Shown here: one piece after another, positions 1 through 56,397 of the stretch | Numbering within the stretch: position 1 is the stretch's first letter | Layout: every line of letters starts with the position of its first letter | Assembly: GCF_016767175.1 (NCBI RefSeq) | Contig: NZ_CP068564.1 | Coordinates: forward strand, 744,001 to 808,000 | DNA from: Keratinibaculum paraultunense | GTDB taxonomy: Bacteria > Bacillota > Clostridia > Tissierellales > Tepidimicrobiaceae | Reading direction: 5' to 3' | DNA length: 64,000 bases | Program-made: the position numbers and the translations under genes | Notes under the pieces: model-generated | What the model was told of the DNA's origin: nothing | Databases searched by the model: none | What the model saw: the letters and a program-made list of their open reading frames with translations, nothing else

Positions 1-375
1 ATTTGGTCCTACTACTTCTATAGGGCTACCTTTTCCATCTTTTACAAATCGTCCTCCAGATAACATGGTTTCAGGCTCTACTAATAGATTGCGAGGATCA
101 TTTATATTTTCTGGATTAAAAAATTTTTTACATCTGATGTTTGATATTTTTATAATTCTAGCATTTCTACCTAACTTAGGTGTAAACCTTACATTATTTA
201 CAGTGCTCAATGCTTGTAAGTTAACTAAAGTAGCATCAAATACTTTTTGAACGAATATTGGTTCTACTTTAACATTTCTCAATGTGCCATCCCATTCACA
301 TCCAGCATTTCCCACACAACATCTATCTGTTACTCCTAAACTAATACTTTCAGGTTTAATATTTGAACAGTTCAT
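1..375 (-). CDS. Unrecognised protein, N-terminal 125 residues (partial)
   Basis: An open frame runs on the minus strand from an ATG at 375-373 to the window edge without a stop, so the C-terminus is missing. The start is supported by a strong AAGGAGG-like ribosome binding site just upstream (about 381-387). The N-terminus is Cys-rich (MNCSN, then RCCVGNAGCEW at about residues 18-28); the rest is a mixed, soluble-looking sequence with no signal peptide or membrane segment. I do not recognise the family. It is divergent from the 526-1770 gene across about 150 bases in which I see no convincing promoter. A spore-surface or coat-type role would be a guess from the cysteines only. Confidence 0.75.
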   Translation of the reverse strand, partial: MNCSNIKPESISLGVTDRCCVGNAGCEWDGTLRNVKVEPIFVQKVFDATLVNLQALSTVNNVRFTPKLGRNARIIKISNIRCKKFFNPENINDPRNLLVEPETMLSGGRFVKDGKGSPIEVVGPN

Positions 376-525
376 ATTTTTCCTCCTTCCAATAAACAGT
401 ATTAAATTTATGTCTCATTCATAATATATTCTTTTACCTTTGCAGTTGTTACATATATGAATAGGAATAATTTGTGATACATATTAATATCATTTAAAAG
501 AAGTATAAATAGGTGGTGAAATAAA

Positions 526-1770
526 ATGTTTTATAATGATAAAATTGTGATAATAAAGGATATTGAAAGCAAAATAATTATGTTTAGATTAATAAATCAA
601 AATATAATTAAATATACTTTTTATAATACTGGAAACTTAGATGAAGAGAGTATAGTTGGTGAAAAAGTACATATGGATTTTGATGTTTCGATTGATAAAG
701 AAAATACTATATTTGTTTTATATCAGGATATGTCATTTAATTTAATTTTAACAGTATTAAAAGAGGATCAAATTGAAAATATAAAATTAACTAAAGAAGC
801 TATACCAGAAACATATAACTTAAATATAATTGTAAAAGATGATAGTATGCATATATTTTATTGCATTTCTCTGACAAAAAATAGCAATATCTATAGAATA
901 TATCATCATTATTATAATGGTAATTGTTGGAACACAAATATAGTAGACGAAATAAATTCAGGGGCGGTTTTAAACCCTTTTAAAATAGTGGAATGTGACA
1001 AAGGATTGATAATAGCCTATCATGATAAACAAGAGAATAATAATGTATATTTAAATTTTTTTAATATTATCAATAAAAAATGGGGAAAGAAGTTAAAGAT
1101 TGTTGATAGTAATCAAGGATTATTATATTTAGATATGCTTTTAAAGGATAATAAATTACATATAGTATATTGTCAATATGATGAAAATTTAGTAGTAAAA
1201 TATGAAAGATTTATTATTAATGACAAAATAATAAAGGATATAAGTGAGATATTATCTAATGAAGAAGGTATTATGTATCCAACTTTAGTATATTATGAAG
1301 ATAAGCTTTGGGCGGTGTGGCTTGAATATGAAAATATAATGAGTAGATATAGTAAAGACAATGGTACTACCTGGAGTCCAATTTATCTATGGGAAGATTC
1401 AAGACAAAAAAAGATTGTTAGATATAAATATATAGATAAATCTTCTTATAATGAAGATATATTAAATTATTCTTTTGGTAGCATAAAGCCACATGTTGAA
1501 TTTATAGGATTTGGAAATATTGAGGATGCTATTGAAGTTCCATTAAAAAAAAAGATTTCATCCTCTGATATTTTGAATTCTTGTAAAGAGATAAAGAAGG
1601 AGATTCAAGAAATATATGATAGATTGGATTTATTAGAAAAAAATATAGATATTTCATTACAACAAGACGGTGTTAAGGAATTAAGACTATTAAAAGATAA
1701 AGTAAATCAAATAGAAGAATTTTTGATAAGAAGAACTAGAGGTTTTTACTTAAAGGATATAAATAGATAG
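526..1770 (+). CDS. Hypothetical protein with Asp-box-like repeat and C-terminal coiled coil
   Basis: 414 residues, preceded by AGGTGGTG 8 bases before the ATG. It has no signal peptide. Most of the chain (about 1-330) is rich in beta-type residues and contains one clear BNR/Asp-box-like motif, YSKDNGTTWSP (about 275-285), as found in sialidase-like beta propellers. The last 70 residues (about 345-410) are Leu/Ile/Lys/Glu-rich and look like a coiled coil. No sialidase catalytic residues were identified, so an enzymatic role is not supported; a propeller scaffold fused to an oligomerisation helix is the best description. The stop codon lies inside a perfect 38-bp palindrome. Function unknown. 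Confidence 0.8.
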   Translation: MFYNDKIVIIKDIESKIIMFRLINQNIIKYTFYNTGNLDEESIVGEKVHMDFDVSIDKENTIFVLYQDMSFNLILTVLKEDQIENIKLTKEAIPETYNLNIIVKDDSMHIFYCISLTKNSNIYRIYHHYYNGNCWNTNIVDEINSGAVLNPFKIVECDKGLIIAYHDKQENNNVYLNFFNIINKKWGKKLKIVDSNQGLLYLDMLLKDNKLHIVYCQYDENLVVKYERFIINDKIIKDISEILSNEEGIMYPTLVYYEDKLWAVWLEYENIMSRYSKDNGTTWSPIYLWEDSRQKKIVRYKYIDKSSYNEDILNYSFGSIKPHVEFIGFGNIEDAIEVPLKKKISSSDILNSCKEIKKEIQEIYDRLDLLEKNIDISLQQDGVKELRLLKDKVNQIEEFLIRRTRGFYLKDINR

Positions 1771-1794
1771 GTGTATACACCTATCTATTTATAT
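1757..1794. terminator. Perfect 38-bp palindrome, probable terminator overlapping a stop codon
   Basis: Bases 1757-1794 read the same on both strands with no spacer (centre between 1775 and 1776, core GTGTATACAC). The TAG stop of the upstream gene (1768-1770) is inside the left arm. In RNA it would fold to a long hairpin, but only ATATTG follows, so the U-tract is poor and termination is an inference. Confidence 0.6.
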
Positions 1795-1853
1795 TGAAAC
1801 ATATTATAGCATTTATGTTTTTATAAATTGATGAATGGAATATACAAAAAATG

Positions 1854-1960
1854 AAAAAAGGCTCCAAAAGGAGCCCCCATCCATAGTGGATGTAAATAAA
1901 CCGTTCAAAAGGGGTATTGGGAATAGAGATCTTATCTGAGGTTACCAGGGGGATAACCAC
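1854..1960 (-). ncRNA. Free-standing C-rich small RNA with own promoter and terminator
   Basis: On the minus strand a consensus-like promoter (TTGCAA at 1995-1990, 17-base spacer, TATAAT at 1972-1967) predicts a start near 1960. About 85 bases later comes a rho-independent terminator: GGCTCC-TTTT-GGAGCC (1875-1860) followed by six Ts. No plausible reading frame with a ribosome binding site lies between. The transcript begins with a hairpin GGTTA/TAACC whose loop shows CCCCC, then has a second single-stranded CCC...CCCC stretch and a small hairpin CATCC/GGATG. C-rich exposed loops are typical of trans-acting sRNAs that pair with Shine-Dalgarno sequences (RsaE/FsrA/CsfG-type), but I cannot assign it to a named family. 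It is not 6S, SRP or tmRNA. Confidence 0.72.
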
Positions 1961-1966
1961 GTACAA

Positions 1967-1995
1967 ATTATAGCAAATTACGACAGAGTTTGCAA
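1967..1995 (-). promoter_or_regulatory. SigmaA-type promoter of the C-rich sRNA
   Basis: Minus-strand TTGCAA (-35, 1995-1990) and perfect TATAAT (-10, 1972-1967) are separated by 17 bases. No coding gene starts downstream, and a terminator lies about 100 bases on, so the promoter serves the small RNA. Confidence 0.75.
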
Positions 1996-2107
1996 GGGTT
2001 TTTTTAAAAAAATTTAAAATAATTTTTTATATATCTTTTTCCTTTAATATTATGTAAATATCTTATATAATAATACTTATAACTAATAGGTTATTGGAGG
2101 GTCCACT

Positions 2108-2713
2108 ATGGATAGAAATCTTTTATTAGCAAAATCAAATTTGGAAAAGAACGAATTTAAAGTAAAGATATTTGAAAGTATAGATGAAATGAAAAAAGAT
2201 CTTTTAAATGAAATTGAAATTAATAAAACTATAGCTTTTGGTGGTTCAATGACATTATTTGACATGGGTCTATATGAGGATTTTAAAAAACGAGGTAATA
2301 AAATATTTTGGCATTGGAAAGCAAAAGATAAGGATAAAGAGTTAGAATTAGCTAAAAACAGTCAAATTTATATATCTAGTACTAATGCTTTAACCTTGGA
2401 TGGGAAATTGGTAAACATAGATGGAGTTGGCAATAGAGTTTCTTCTATGTTTTATGGACATGAAAGAGTATATATAATAGCTGGTAGGAATAAAATATGT
2501 AAAGATTATGATGAAGCTATAGAAAGGGTTAAGAACGTAGCAGCACCTAAAAATGCTTGCAGATTAGATATTAATACGCCCTGTAAATTTACGGGAAAAT
2601 GTAATAATTGTAATTCGCCTGATAGAATATGTAGAGTAGAGGTAATAATTCATAAAAATCCAACAGGAGGAGATATTCGAATTTATTTAATTGATGAAGA
2701 ATTAGGATATTAA
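2108..2713 (+). CDS. LUD-domain (LutC/YkgG-like) lactate utilisation family protein
   Basis: 201 residues, ATG preceded by TTGGAGGG. The order of features fits the LUD/DUF162 family: an N-terminal helical part, then AFGGSMTLFDMG (about 39-50), a central SSTNALTLDGKLVNIDGVGNR stretch (about 97-117) typical of the family, and YIIAGRNKI. The C-terminus adds a Cys cluster at about residues 151-178 (spacing roughly C-x7-C-x5-C-x2-C-x6-C), as seen in many clostridial members and possibly binding a metal or Fe-S cluster. It stands alone, without lutA or lutB, so a role in lactate oxidation is not shown. It lies 19 bases upstream of the cysteine desulfurase gene and may be co-transcribed. Confidence 0.8.
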   Translation: MDRNLLLAKSNLEKNEFKVKIFESIDEMKKDLLNEIEINKTIAFGGSMTLFDMGLYEDFKKRGNKIFWHWKAKDKDKELELAKNSQIYISSTNALTLDGKLVNIDGVGNRVSSMFYGHERVYIIAGRNKICKDYDEAIERVKNVAAPKNACRLDINTPCKFTGKCNNCNSPDRICRVEVIIHKNPTGGDIRIYLIDEELGY

Positions 2714-2732
2714 AATTAGATGAGGTGATATT

Positions 2733-3890
2733 TTGGAAGTATATTTAGATAATTGTGCCACGACAAAACCTAGAGAAGAAGTAATTGAAGAAATGTTACA
2801 CGTGTTAAGGGAAGAATATGGGAATCCCTCATCTCTTCATAGAAAAGGTTTTAATGCAGAAAAAAAGATAGAAGAAGTTAGAGAAAACATTGGAAGATTT
2901 TTAAATGTTAGTAGTGATGAAATATATTTCACTTCTGGAGGCACGGAAAGCAATAATCTTGCTATTCAAAGTATAATAGATAAATGTCATAAGAAAGGTA
3001 AGCATATAATAACTAGTAAAATAGAACATCCATCAGTATTAAATGTTTTAGAATATTATGAACAAAAAGGATATGAAATTACTTATTTGGATGTAGATAG
3101 CAATGGATTAATTTCTTTAGAGCAATTTAGAGATAGTATTAGAGATGATACTATTTTAGTTTGTATAATGTTAGTAAATAATGAAGTAGGGAGTATACAA
3201 CCAATTGATAAAATAAAGGATATTTTACGAAAAGAAAAGTCTAAAGCCCTGTTACATGTAGATGGGATTCAAGCTTTTGGGAAAGTACCTGTAAATATAA
3301 AAGGATGGGGAATAGATACTTTTTCATTTAGTGGACATAAAATATATGGACCTAAAGGAATTGGAGGACTATTTGTAGATAAAAAAATAAAATTAAATCC
3401 AATAATATTTGGAGGCAATCAAGAACGAGGTCTTCGCTCTGGTACGGAAAATGTTCCTGGTATAGTTGGTCTAGGTAAAGCAGTTGAAATTATGGAGAAA
3501 AATTATGAAAAAGAAAGTGAAAAAGTAAAAAGAATAAAAAATTATTTTATTAAAAGATTGAGAGAGAATATTGAGCTTATTAAAATAAATAGTCCTATGA
3601 GTGAGAAATGTTCTCCATATATATTAAATGTATCTTTTAAATATGTTAAAGGTGAAGTGCTACTACATTATTTAGAGGATAAAGAAATATACGTATCTAC
3701 TGGTTCTGCATGTTCTTCAAAGGGGACTGAGAAAAGTCATGTATTGAAAGCTATGGGGCTATCTCCTTTAGACATAGATGGAGCTATCAGATTTTGTTTT
3801 TCCTATGAAAATACAATAAATGATGTTGATTATACTGTGGATGTATTAAAAAATTCAGTAGAAGAAATACGACAAATAACTATGAGGTGA
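2733..3890 (+). CDS. Cysteine desulfurase (IscS/NifS family)
   Basis: 385-residue PLP enzyme that takes sulfur from cysteine and passes it as persulfide to acceptors. Visible are the N-terminal YLDNCATTKP, the TSGGTESNN cofactor region, the PLP-binding SGHK (Lys about 203) and the sulfur-carrying Cys in TGSACSSKG (about 327). The start is TTG at 2733 with TGAGGTGAT upstream. The gene is followed 6 bases later by thiI, so its main partner is probably ThiI for 4-thiouridine formation in tRNA rather than general Fe-S assembly; no iscU is present here. The family assignment is firm; the specific iscS/nifZ-like role is inferred from position. Confidence 0.95.
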   Translation: MEVYLDNCATTKPREEVIEEMLHVLREEYGNPSSLHRKGFNAEKKIEEVRENIGRFLNVSSDEIYFTSGGTESNNLAIQSIIDKCHKKGKHIITSKIEHPSVLNVLEYYEQKGYEITYLDVDSNGLISLEQFRDSIRDDTILVCIMLVNNEVGSIQPIDKIKDILRKEKSKALLHVDGIQAFGKVPVNIKGWGIDTFSFSGHKIYGPKGIGGLFVDKKIKLNPIIFGGNQERGLRSGTENVPGIVGLGKAVEIMEKNYEKESEKVKRIKNYFIKRLRENIELIKINSPMSEKCSPYILNVSFKYVKGEVLLHYLEDKEIYVSTGSACSSKGTEKSHVLKAMGLSPLDIDGAIRFCFSYENTINDVDYTVDVLKNSVEEIRQITMR

Positions 3891-3896
3891 TTGTAG

Positions 3897-5060
3897 GTGG
3901 ATAAAGTAATAAGTGTTAGCTTAGGAGAGATCGCATTAAAAGGATTAAATAGAAAATATTTTGAGGATGAACTTATATCAAGAATTAAAGAAAATTTAAA
4001 GGATATAGGTTATGAAAGGATATATAAAGAACAAGGAAAATTTTATATTGAAGCACAGGAAAAAGATTTTGATATGATAATTGATAGATTAAAGAAAATA
4101 TTTGGACTGGTTTATATAAGTCCTTGTATTAGAATAGATAAGAACATGGGAAAAATTGAAGAAGCTTCTATACAGATGATAGGGGAAAAATTATCCAATG
4201 AAAATATAAAAACTTTTAAAGTAGTTACTAGGAGGATAGATAAAAGTTTTCCAATTAAATCTCCAGATGTATCAAAAGAGATAGGAGCTGTAATATTAAA
4301 AGAGTATGATGATTTAAAAGTAGATGTTCATAATCCTGATATATATTTATATATAGACATAAAAGAAAATTGTTATGTGTATATAGACAAAATAAGAGGT
4401 TATGGAGGACTACCGGTTGGTACTAATGGTCATGGATTACTTTTACTATCAGGTGGGATTGACAGCCCAGTAGCTGGATTTATGATGGCAAAACGTGGGG
4501 TTAAAATAAGTGTTGTCCATTTTCATAGCTATCCTTTTACTAGTGAAAGGGCAGAGGAAAAAGTTAAAAAATTGGCTAAAATATTAAGTTTATATACTGG
4601 TCCAATAAAGTTTTATAGTGTAAATATATTGGAGATACAAAAGGAGTTAAATTCTAAATGCCCTGAAGATGAGATGACTATCCTATCTAGGAGATTTATG
4701 ATGAGAATATCTGAAAGAATAGCAAATAAAAATCATATTAATGCCCTTATTACAGGAGAAAACTTAGGGCAAGTTGCATCCCAAACCATAGAAGGCATAT
4801 CTGTTATTAATGCAGTGGTAAATATTCCTATATTAAGACCTTTAATTGGATTTGATAAGGTAGATATAATAGATTTAGCAAAGGAAATAGAAACATATGA
4901 AACTTCCATATTACCTTATGAAGATTGTTGTACTTTATTTTTACCTCAACATCCTGTAACTAGACCTAAATTAGAGAATATAGAAAAATCAGAGGAAAAT
5001 ATAGATATAGAAAGATTAATTGAAAATGCTCTAAAAACCATGAAAATATATAATATTTAA
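3897..5060 (+). CDS. thiI: tRNA 4-thiouridine synthetase ThiI
   Basis: 387 residues. An N-terminal ferredoxin-like/THUMP region (about 1-165) is followed by a PP-loop ATP pyrophosphatase domain with SGGIDS at about 185-190. The late YEDCCTLF (about 341-348) carries the conserved sulfur-relay Cys. The C-terminal rhodanese domain of enterobacterial ThiI is absent, as is usual in Firmicutes, where a dedicated desulfurase (the gene immediately upstream) supplies sulfur directly. The start is GTG at 3897, with GAGGTGATTG upstream overlapping the end of the desulfurase gene. The product adds sulfur to U8 of tRNA. Confidence 0.95.
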   Translation: MDKVISVSLGEIALKGLNRKYFEDELISRIKENLKDIGYERIYKEQGKFYIEAQEKDFDMIIDRLKKIFGLVYISPCIRIDKNMGKIEEASIQMIGEKLSNENIKTFKVVTRRIDKSFPIKSPDVSKEIGAVILKEYDDLKVDVHNPDIYLYIDIKENCYVYIDKIRGYGGLPVGTNGHGLLLLSGGIDSPVAGFMMAKRGVKISVVHFHSYPFTSERAEEKVKKLAKILSLYTGPIKFYSVNILEIQKELNSKCPEDEMTILSRRFMMRISERIANKNHINALITGENLGQVASQTIEGISVINAVVNIPILRPLIGFDKVDIIDLAKEIETYETSILPYEDCCTLFLPQHPVTRPKLENIEKSEENIDIERLIENALKTMKIYNI

Positions 5061-5094
5061 TAAAGTATTAAATGGGAAAAAATGATATTTTATA

Positions 5095-5123
5095 TTGACA
5101 TACCTGTCGAATAAGTATAAAAT
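5095..5123 (+). promoter_or_regulatory. Promoter of the TetR/radical SAM operon
   Basis: TTGACA (5095-5100), a 17-base spacer and TAAAAT (5118-5123) form a near-consensus sigmaA promoter. The spacer carries ACCTGTCG-type sequence that could hold the TetR operator, as TetR regulators often repress their own promoter; a precise operator is not evident. Confidence 0.7.
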
Positions 5124-5131
5124 ATAATAAA

Positions 5132-5174
5132 GGCAATTTTCATCATATTGAAAGGAGGATAGTAATAAATTGCC
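5132..5174 (+). promoter_or_regulatory. Inverted repeat enclosing the RBS and TTG start of the tetR gene
   Basis: GGCAATTT (5132-5139) is the exact reverse complement of AAATTGCC (5167-5174). The 27-base loop holds the AAAGGAGG ribosome binding site (5151-5158), and the right arm contains the TTG start codon (5170-5172). In mRNA the pairing would hide the start codon; in DNA it could be an operator. Which one applies cannot be told from sequence. Confidence 0.5.
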
Positions 5175-5757
5175 TAAAATTGTAGATTATGATAAAAAAA
5201 AGCAGGAAATAATTGAAAAAGCTAAAATAGTGTTTGCAAAGCGTGGGTACCATGATACTAGCCTTTCTCATATATCAAAGAAATGTGGAATGGGTAGAAC
5301 AACTATATATCAGTATTTTAAAAATAAAGACGAAATATTTTATCATACTGTAGGAAGTACTTTAGAAGAAATACAAACACAGGTTGAAGTAATAGTAACC
5401 AATGAAGAATTGTCTTTTACAGAAAAGTTAAAACAAGTAATACATCAATTAACAGAAGGGCAAGAGGATAACAATACTTTCATATTGCTTTTAGAGACAT
5501 TACTTATAATAAATAGAGGAACAAATGAGGTATTAGAAAAAATAAAGGACGATATCCAAAAATTAAAAAATACTATTGAAGACTTAATTAAAGGAGCTAT
5601 TGAAAAAAAAGAGATTAAACCAGTAGATAGTAAAAGTTTTGCAGAAACTATCTATACATTTATTGAAACTCTTACACTTAAGAGTATTTCTAATAAAAAT
5701 GATTCAAAAGTTAAAGCTGAGTTTTTAAATCTATTAATTGATGATTTGAAAATTTAA
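5170..5757 (+). CDS. TetR/AcrR family transcriptional regulator
   Basis: 195 residues with a TTG start, AAAGGAGG ribosome binding site 11 bases upstream. The N-terminal DNA-binding domain is clear: AKIVFAKRGYHDTSLSHISKKCGMGRTTIYQYFKNKDEIF (about 18-57) gives the helix-turn-helix. The C-terminal ligand domain is variable and not diagnostic. It sits 20 bases upstream of a radical SAM gene under one promoter, so it very likely controls that gene and itself. The start codon is inside an inverted repeat that may regulate translation or bind the protein. The ligand is unknown. Confidence 0.9.
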   Translation: MPKIVDYDKKKQEIIEKAKIVFAKRGYHDTSLSHISKKCGMGRTTIYQYFKNKDEIFYHTVGSTLEEIQTQVEVIVTNEELSFTEKLKQVIHQLTEGQEDNNTFILLLETLLIINRGTNEVLEKIKDDIQKLKNTIEDLIKGAIEKKEIKPVDSKSFAETIYTFIETLTLKSISNKNDSKVKAEFLNLLIDDLKI

Positions 5758-5777
5758 AATAAGGGGGGAGAGTTATA

Positions 5778-7157
5778 ATGGCAAGTGTAAAACAATTAGT
5801 TAGTACTGCGGTGATAAATGAGGGGTTAAAATATATTGAAAAGGATCCAATGAAAAATATGCCTAAACTATTGGATTGGGCTGATAAGCTTGTTACTAAG
5901 GAAAATCATAAGAAACATGTTAAAACTTTTAGAAATATAGTTGAGAATCCTGATAATAATTGGTATAAACTTATGGAAAGATATTTTGATGAGTTATCCC
6001 CTGCATCAAGGAAAAAGTTTTTAATAAACTACATGGTAAATTCTGGTATAGTTGGTATACCTATTCAAGATAAAGCAAAGAAAAAGTATAATTGTAATAT
6101 ACCATGGGCAATACTTATGGATCCGACTAGTGCTTGTAATTTAAAATGTACTGGATGCTGGGCTGCAGAATATGATAAAACGGACTCATTAAGTTATGAT
6201 CTTTTAGATAGGATTATAAGAGAAGGAAAAGAACTGGGAATTTATATGTATATATATTCTGGTGGTGAGCCATTAGTAAGAAAAGATGATTTGATAAGGT
6301 TAGCAGAGGAACATAGTGATTGTTCTTTCTTAGCATTTACCAATGCTACCTTAGTAGATGAAGAATTTGCTAAAAAACTAGGTGAATTAGGCAATTTTGG
6401 ATTAGCTATTAGTGTAGAAGGTTATGAAGAAGATACTGATATGAGAAGAGGAAAAGGTACTTATAATAAGGTTATGGAAGCAATGGATCTATTGAAAAAA
6501 GAAGGAGTAATATTTGGTTTTTCAACTTGTTATCATAGATATAATACAGAAGCAGTGGCTGATGAAGAATATGTAGATTTCTTAGTAGATAAAGGATGTA
6601 TGTTTGGCTGGTACTTTACTTACATGCCAATTGGTAAAGATGCTGTTACTGACTTGCTTGTAACGCCTGAGCAGAGAAAATATATGTACCATCAAATAAG
6701 AGAGTTAAGATCTAAGAAACCAATATTTTTAATAGATTTCTGGAATGATGGAGAATATGTCAATGGTTGTATTGCTGGAGGAAGGAATTATCTTCATATT
6801 AATGCAAATGGAGATGTAGAACCTTGTGCATTCGTACATTATTCTAATGTTAATATTAAAGATGTAAGTTTAATAGAAGCATTGCAATCTCCATTATTTA
6901 TGCAATATAAAAAGAATCAGCCATTTAATGAGAATCATCTAAGACCTTGTCCTATATTGGATAATCCTGAAAAGATTGTAGATATGGTAGAGGCATCAGG
7001 TGCTTATTCTACTCAACCAATAGATAGAGAAGATGCAAGGGATTTAGCAGCAAAGACAAAACCTGTTGCTGAAAAATGGGCTCCTGTAGCAGATGAATTA
7101 TGGGAGAAACATTTAAAAGAAAAATCTAAAGAGAAAGCAGAAGTTGCAAGTGAATAA
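5778..7157 (+). CDS. Radical SAM protein with SPASM-like C-terminus
   Basis: 459 residues, ATG preceded by AAGGGGGGAG. An N-terminal helical region of about 110 residues precedes the radical SAM core: CNLKCTGC gives Cys120, Cys124 and Cys127 for the SAM-binding [4Fe-4S] cluster, and YSGGEPL (about 159-165) is the GGE motif. The C-terminal part has further cysteines in NGCIAGG, VEPCAF and RPCP (about 333-396), resembling an auxiliary-cluster (SPASM/twitch) region. A Lys/Glu-rich tail ends the chain. It is co-transcribed with a TetR regulator, which points to an inducible enzyme, but no precursor peptide or other substrate gene is adjacent. Substrate unknown. Confidence 0.85.
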   Translation: MASVKQLVSTAVINEGLKYIEKDPMKNMPKLLDWADKLVTKENHKKHVKTFRNIVENPDNNWYKLMERYFDELSPASRKKFLINYMVNSGIVGIPIQDKAKKKYNCNIPWAILMDPTSACNLKCTGCWAAEYDKTDSLSYDLLDRIIREGKELGIYMYIYSGGEPLVRKDDLIRLAEEHSDCSFLAFTNATLVDEEFAKKLGELGNFGLAISVEGYEEDTDMRRGKGTYNKVMEAMDLLKKEGVIFGFSTCYHRYNTEAVADEEYVDFLVDKGCMFGWYFTYMPIGKDAVTDLLVTPEQRKYMYHQIRELRSKKPIFLIDFWNDGEYVNGCIAGGRNYLHINANGDVEPCAFVHYSNVNIKDVSLIEALQSPLFMQYKKNQPFNENHLRPCPILDNPEKIVDMVEASGAYSTQPIDREDARDLAAKTKPVAEKWAPVADELWEKHLKEKSKEKAEVASE

Positions 7158-56300: not shown

Positions 56301-56397
56301 GGGAGTAGATGGGTGCTGGTGTGCCCTCTGGTCTTCAAAACCAGTACGGGGCGTTAGGAGCGTCCTGGGTGGGTTCGATTCCCACATACTCCCGCCA
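56301..56397 (+). tRNA. selC: tRNA-Sec (anticodon TCA)
   Basis: 97 bases including CCA. Acceptor GGGAGTA/TACTCCC, long D arm, anticodon stem CTGGT/ACCAG with loop CTTCAAA (anticodon TCA), a very long variable arm (about 56346-56367) and T loop GGGTTCGATTCCC. The long extra arm and extended acceptor are typical of selenocysteine tRNA, not of a suppressor. Confidence 0.96.

Follow-up and report, generated by a model that had tools for sequence, protein, structure and literature searches.

Between positions 1995 and 1850 of the window (the whole stretch of 64,000 nucleotides analysed), the minus strand carries a compact locus in which TTGCAA, a 17-nt spacer and TGC-TATAAT precede an RNA of ~105-112 nt that ends in a GC-rich terminator (Table 1). 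The promoter, which a first, sequence-only reading of this DNA had called perfect, is indeed present with this spacing, and since it matches the consensus at only 10 of 12 bases, with an extended -10 in addition, it is better described as good. Promoter-like sites number 55 in window positions 1-6000 versus 43 in shuffled sequences. The stem-loop at 1878-1857 with its T-run, the terminator named in the same reading, is the sole terminator-like site scanned in these 6000 positions; however, shuffles contain 1.2 such sites on average, so the terminator scan alone is not above chance. The folding energy is unexceptional as well (z -1.27; 24 of 200 shuffles fold equally well), and what raises the RNA above chance is its conservation rather than its folding energy or the terminator scan.

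No gene is enclosed between promoter and terminator, as had been noticed: apart from a 61-aa TTG frame, which comparison across loci showed not to be kept in relatives, no ORF of 60 aa or more crosses the RNA. The CCCCC loop, the second CCC/CCCC stretch and the G5 ahead of the terminator are likewise all present. The suggestion that the G5 masks the C-loop and so provides a switch did not hold up, as G5 is present in just 3, and G4 in 12, of 39 loci; G5 is thus not a conserved part.

A 414-aa protein with no Pfam family at E<=0.001 is encoded convergently with the RNA (526-1770, plus strand), and a protein similar to it by eye occupies the same place in a related locus (L028). Genes for a LUD-domain protein, a NifS/IscS-type cysteine desulfurase and ThiI follow in a row (2108-5060, plus strand), the desulfurase-ThiI pair being kept beside the RNA in Clostridioides-like genomes, too. 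Further away, a selenocysteine tRNA (56301-56393, plus strand; Rfam 77.1 bits) indicates that the organism likely uses selenocysteine.

Table 1. Features of the RNA locus in window coordinates.
Feature	Position	Strand	Basis
-35 hexamer TTGCAA	1990..1995	-	promoter scan; TTG kept in alignment of relatives
TGTCG between -35 and -10, putative Spo0A (0A) box core	1981..1985	-	sequence; promoter counts
Extended -10, TGC-TATAAT	1967..1972	-	promoter scan and alignment
Predicted transcription start region, ~5-7 nt past -10	1958..1962	-	inferred from promoter spacing
Conserved 5' hairpin GGUUAU-CCCCCUG-GUAACC, 6-bp stem, loop 1952-1946	1940..1958	-	fold and pair counts
Stretch UUAUCCCCCUG(G), predicted to be antisense to the spo0A ribosome-binding site CAGGGGGGUA	1944..1955	-	prediction
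AUUCCCAAUACCCCUUUU, single-stranded, widest-conserved element of the RNA	1907..1924	-	alignments; target search negative
GAACGG, kept in most Tissierellales-type copies, other sequence elsewhere	1901..1906	-	alignments
Second hairpin CATCCA-CTA-TGGATG, lineage-variable, 3' end abutting G5	1878..1892	-	fold and alignment
Intrinsic terminator stem-loop, T-rich tail to ~1847	1857..1878	-	scan; terminators of relatives differ in sequence, same place

Distribution and conservation of the RNA

A DNA search detected the RNA together with its promoter in 45 of the 61 genomes of the order, each time as a single copy, except for one genome (G026) whose two matches both lie at contig ends. Half of the 44 other matching genomes (22, from five families) share 85-95% identity over 110-147 nt, and in 21 of these 22 close matches the alignment begins at or before the -35 hexamer; the remaining matches within the order are shorter or more diverged, with identity down to 72%. 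The aligned core reads GGTTATCCCCCTGGTAACC...CTCTATTCCCAATACCCCTTTTGAACGG, and both the core and the promoter TTGC..TGTCG..TTTG.TATAAT are almost invariant in most aligned copies; terminators and flanks vary between relatives. The other DNA match in the genome of origin (L002) was rejected as a second copy, being AT-rich sequence upstream of the promoter only.

A covariance model built from 37 core sequences (R2) extended the search to the class, where 23 of 381 genomes match, a count limited to E<=2e-8; of the 13 class genomes with weaker matches, 8 were examined at the match sites. Under strict filters, 2 of 398 genomes of the phylum match, both within the class. A pattern scan of named genomes returned at least 119 stretches, and among the matches listed are Schnuerera, Anaerosalibacter, Soehngenia, Sedimentibacter, Dethiosulfatibacter, Alkaliphilus, Natronincola, Romboutsia, Emergencia and many Clostridium species. 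All 8 genomes of a Clostridioides-like genus harbour the RNA, this label being based, for G445, G355 and their genus, on gene order and the literature. In the Clostridium copies the loop UGACCAU (or UAACCAU) replaces CCCCCUG, and the core is UCUCAUAAAUUCUCAAUACCCUUUUAUACCAU.

Weak model matches were read at their true places at 16 loci (L251-L257 from seven weak class genomes, L301 and L306 from G426, and all matches in the 16 RNA-negative order genomes), and hairpin and promoter occurred together in none of them. One of these, L252 (G166:C20:3511-3571; E 9.6e-4), has a GGTTAT...ATAACC hairpin and a C-rich 3' part with no visible promoter; it comes from a family otherwise without the RNA and has the status of a candidate only.

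Several copies deviate from the common layout. In three of them (L042, L043 and L044, from G025, G041 and G054, respectively) the promoter and the GTTATCCCCCTG loop persist and the CAATACCCC element is lost or rebuilt; the two C stretches are here naturally uncoupled, in mirror image to the situation in Clostridium. In L062 (G409, whose Spo0A_C match is weak), L088 and L097 the C-loop is degenerate and CAATACCC retained. In one contig of a Tissierellia MAG (L151) the RNA core occurs twice, at a distance of 227 nt (5462-5504 and 5689-5731); the copies are separated by masked N and may be an assembly effect.

Small RNAs are described as usually being taxonomically restricted (PMC8216469). The RNA described here, which hardly differs between Tissierellales and Peptostreptococcaceae and is still recognisable in Clostridium and Emergencia-type genomes, would be unusually well conserved.

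A noncoding RNA absent from Rfam

The 6-bp stem of the 5' hairpin is paired in 99.1% of cells among the 37 sequences, with compensatory changes at 3 of 6 pairs, a result that 0 of 500 shuffles reached. When the stem partner is slid along the alignment, pairing falls to 23-60%, even though a slide of +3 still gives two compensated pairs. A narrower set of 22 sequences shows weak covariation, with one compensated pair and 72 of 500 shuffles equal. The possibility that the conserved stretch encodes a small protein was rejected, because the distance between hairpin and CAAUA falls into all residue classes (19, 6 and 12 of 37 sequences) and because each of the three reading frames is interrupted by a stop in some sequences (14, 34 and 30 of 37).

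At gathering threshold, a search of the whole window against Rfam 15 (4227 families) yielded tRNA and tRNA-Sec only. The best score for the RNA region at E<=5 was 17.6 bits, every score lying far below the thresholds, and the RNA was matched by no family at 16 related loci. A different part of one locus, L116 2759-2857, matches Rfam n00280, a C. difficile sRNA located inside a helicase gene; in Clostridioides-like genomes, a gene for a UvrD/PcrA-like helicase is located a few kb away from the RNA. Open full-text papers were searched for six sequence stretches of the RNA, and none was found; the RNA may be among the unnamed entries of supplementary RNA-seq tables. The covariance and Rfam comparison suggested in the sequence-only reading thus returned no known family and revealed a hairpin and C-loop conserved in relatives, in line with its view of a candidate for a new clostridial regulatory RNA.

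The genes surrounding the RNA change from clade to clade. In Tissierellales its neighbours are divergent LUD and cysteine desulfurase genes, so the link to LUD genes drawn previously applies there as a matter of neighbourhood only, other clades having sipL and veg, RNase H-like or still other genes instead. In the Clostridium loci examined the RNA is located between sipL-like and veg genes, an RNase H-like gene adjoins it in L054 and, as judged by eye, in Emergencia, and in Sedimentibacter-type loci the next gene is a convergent one of 268-285 aa. Many Tissierellales and Peptostreptococcaceae loci, but not the window, contain a same-strand gene of ~325-338 aa within ~320 nt of the hairpin, which is asparaginase-like in the three sequences examined (L005, L116 and L158; one tested by Pfam). 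Such an arrangement would suit a cis-acting leader of a downstream gene, e.g. the asparaginase. However, the RNA has its own terminator, the next gene in the window is convergent, as it is in Sedimentibacter-type loci, and the sipL-like and veg genes flanking it in Clostridium lie on the other strand, which makes a leader most improbable. The changing gene neighbours argue for an RNA acting in trans, and the locus has the sequence features of a trans-acting antisense small RNA, namely its own promoter and terminator, noncoding nature and changing neighbours. As judged from comparative sequence evidence, the RNA represents a genuine and widely conserved family of small RNAs that is absent from Rfam.

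Complementarity to the spo0A ribosome-binding site

The loop sequence UUAUCCCCCUG is complementary to the spo0A ribosome-binding site CAGGGGGGUA and is predicted to pair with CAGGGGGGUAA over 11 positions with one G-U. Lineages with the C-loop have an unusual G-run ahead of spo0A, typically CAGGGGGGUAA or a close form, often followed by a UUG start, and G5 or more is found at the spo0A start in 31 of the 33 genomes that possess both a C-loop RNA and a spo0A start found by script. The ability of the C-loop to pair with G-rich ribosome-binding sites, proposed beforehand from the sequence, is hence supported by prediction.

Among 414 gene starts of the own genome, a sample made up of the window and 20 stretches with the spo0A stretch added on purpose and called by a crude gene-start caller, spo0A ranks 1st for loop pairing and is alone in having CAGGGGG. 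For two distant genomes the ranks are 4th of 345 and 6th of 332, although the ranking was made after the spo0A start sites had already been seen and is therefore not blind. When the full RNA is co-folded, spo0A becomes unremarkable (105th of 414, 83rd of 345 and 215th of 332). Target prediction at gene starts, also advised in the sequence-only reading, ranks spo0A high by the loop and not by the full co-fold.

In Clostridium, where the loop differs, spo0A is preceded by a site such as AAAGGGGAG or AAAGGAGAG, with G5 in 0 of 5 genomes and weak loop duplexes of -4.7 to -7.3 kcal/mol. The loop-duplex energies include neither the Clostridium copies of G177, G264, G337, G372 and G408 nor those of G010 and G055, in which the script located no spo0A start. 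As the Clostridium-type RNA has no C-loop, spo0A cannot be its target by this route. Meanwhile, family f10 (G028 and G044) has a G-rich spo0A ribosome-binding site and no recognisable RNA: in these spo0A-containing genomes, neither the model nor a search with a loose TATAAT-TTATCCCCC pattern hit anything but unrelated places. Since AGGGGG(G) persists in these RNA-free genomes, a G-run alone is no proof of pairing.

It is a real possibility, if not a probable one, that this is a genuine trans-acting small RNA whose main targets lie elsewhere, be it the many genes with G5 ribosome-binding sites or a partner of the CAAUACCCC element, the match to spo0A then being incidental or one of many. GGGGG precedes 38 of the 414 gene starts in the own genome and G5 9-11% of starts in two of the genomes, so that other genes could be targets too; further genes score near spo0A, and above it in 2 of 3 genomes. 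The widest-kept element of the RNA, moreover, is CAAUACCC(C)UUUU, which is retained even where the C-loop is lost. On the other hand, the number of AAGGGGTATT occurrences ahead of start codons in 14 genomes was close to that of a reversed-pattern control, and of 30 such loci fetched, 8 had an ORF of at least 60 aa at the start, with no gene recurring between genomes. Furthermore, a general regulator would have no need to track spo0A or to carry a Spo0A-type promoter box, and the RNA does both.

The single-stranded C-rich stretches, the fixed sequence and the little covariation would also fit recognition by a protein, in which case the RNA would mainly bind and sequester an RNA chaperone or translational regulator rather than act by base pairing. 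We consider this unlikely, given that the loop is complementary to a specific, unusual ribosome-binding site and that loop and site differ together between clades.

Co-occurrence with spo0A and a putative Spo0A box in the promoter

With spo0A searched for as PF08769, the 61 order genomes divide into 41 with both the RNA and spo0A, 4 with the RNA only, 5 with spo0A only and 11 with neither (Fisher p 9.6e-6, ignoring kinship). For the 48 genomes that are at least 95% complete, the corresponding numbers are 33, 3, 2 and 10 (p 2.5e-6, again ignoring kinship); in all counts given here the species are not independent of each other. In the class, spo0A is above the cut-off in 295 of 381 genomes and the RNA in 23, which means that outside the RNA-bearing lineages spo0A without the RNA is the rule. 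Conversely, the RNA occurs without spo0A in three well-assembled genomes of the order (G021, G034 and G038) and in three of the class (G127, G154 and G286).

The core of the 0A box is TGTCGAA, of which C. difficile Spo0A was reported to require G2, C4 and G5, many Spo0A target genes having degenerate motifs (PMC3485338). TGTCG is present in 102 of 167 promoters of the RNA versus 14 of 167 downstream control stretches (shuffle mean 8.8), and the full TGTCGAA in 37 versus 8 (shuffle mean 1.4). The copy in the window, TGTCGTA, is a degenerate box. Out of 99 TGTCG sites on the plus strand, 58 are placed 25-28 nt and 22 are placed 17-18 nt upstream of the hairpin, i.e. between -35 and -10 or overlapping -10, so a protein bound there would block RNA polymerase. 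The arrangement TTG-N7-TGTCG-N3-TTTG-N-TATAAT occurs, as an exact match, solely at the RNA in 11 of 12 genomes. That it represents a general promoter type was rejected, as in the twelfth genome the RNA copy has one mismatch and all 10 other matches have two.

TGTCG lies within 45 nt of 46 of the 59 RNA copies whose genomes have spo0A, versus 2 of the 7 whose genomes lack it (p 0.014). The two spo0A-less genomes that have TGTCG are G003, which is 86% complete, and G127, a true exception that retains TGTCGAA. Among the 13 spo0A genomes without TGTCG near the RNA, five are those with Clostridium copies (G177, G264, G337, G372 and G408), whose promoters show TGACG, TGGCG, TGACA or AGCG forms in its place while spo0A is present.

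A possible double-negative switch with Spo0A

Clostridia are thought to lack the classical phosphorelay of Bacillus (PMC11210211). An RNA that targets spo0A and is itself controlled by Spo0A would, if real, be a simple answer to how they decide to sporulate. The best-supported function of the RNA, held with a confidence that falls just short of even, is that of a trans-acting small RNA in a double-negative circuit with Spo0A. According to this proposal, the SigA-type promoter would direct the synthesis of an RNA of ~105-112 nt during growth, and the RNA would act in trans, its C-loop hairpin pairing with the G-rich ribosome-binding site of spo0A and thereby lowering Spo0A synthesis. Some further mRNAs whose ribosome-binding sites contain G5-6 would probably be paired with as well. 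Accumulating Spo0A~P would then bind to the 0A-type site within the core promoter and switch the RNA off, the outcome being a sharper commitment to sporulation. The Clostridium-type RNAs must act differently, for they have no C-loop.

In a wider and more doubtful, though possible, form of this idea, an ancient RNA-Spo0A switch would operate across much of Clostridia as the RNA equivalent of AbrB, setting the sporulation threshold; it would have been retuned by joint changes of the loop and the spo0A site, retargeted in Clostridium, and lost in many spo0A-less lineages. What had been observed in the sequence-only reading is confirmed and its interpretation partly supported; both the link to Spo0A and the wide spread of the RNA had escaped it.

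Comparison with known regulators

The RsaE/RoxS-type sRNAs of Bacillales direct C-rich single-stranded stretches at ribosome-binding sites. The RNA described here resembles them in this general character, and differs from them in having no Rfam match and in being found, in the class and phylum searches, only in Clostridia.

In C. difficile, SpoX (nc038) pairs with the 5' untranslated region of spo0A, which makes it similar to the RNA proposed here; however, it binds further upstream and raises spo0A translation, nucleotides 22-39 and 47-52 being protected (PMC10267692). SpoY (nc020) represses spo0A translation by pairing at the ribosome-binding site via a G-rich motif, and eight further C. difficile sRNAs were ligated to spo0A mRNA (PMC10267692). 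SpoY is a published parallel, as a small RNA directed at the spo0A ribosome-binding site, which for the RNA described here is a prediction only. An early idea that the RNA is nc176 was dropped.

The proposed target and site are those of SpoY, and the RNA lies at 0.92 Mb in a Clostridioides-like genome, broadly in the same chromosome region as the neighbour gene of SpoY; the two might thus be one and the same, which we regard as decidedly improbable. SpoY comes from a 5' untranslated region: it was described as sharing a start site with CDIF630_00827 and having a protected stretch at nt 30-41 (PMC10267692), whereas the C stretches here fall at ~nt 9-14 and 44-55, counted from the predicted start 5-7 nt past -10, and the Clostridioides-like copies end in their own terminator before a convergent gene. 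CDIF630erm_00832-00833, reported as CooSC (PMC6311696), are placed by gene number ~40 kb from the RNA; if both gene numberings agree, CDIF630_00827 should therefore be another locus, apparently ~40-45 kb away. The part of its description considered here names no relative outside C. difficile (PMC10267692). The RNA is thus probably not SpoY, from which it is set apart by locus, seed position and terminator as described, rather than by the sequence of SpoY.

The regulatory logic of the proposed circuit has a parallel in the clostridial AbrB, which represses spo0A and is in turn switched off by Spo0A (PMC9871927). AbrB is a protein, however, whereas the repressor proposed here would be an RNA.
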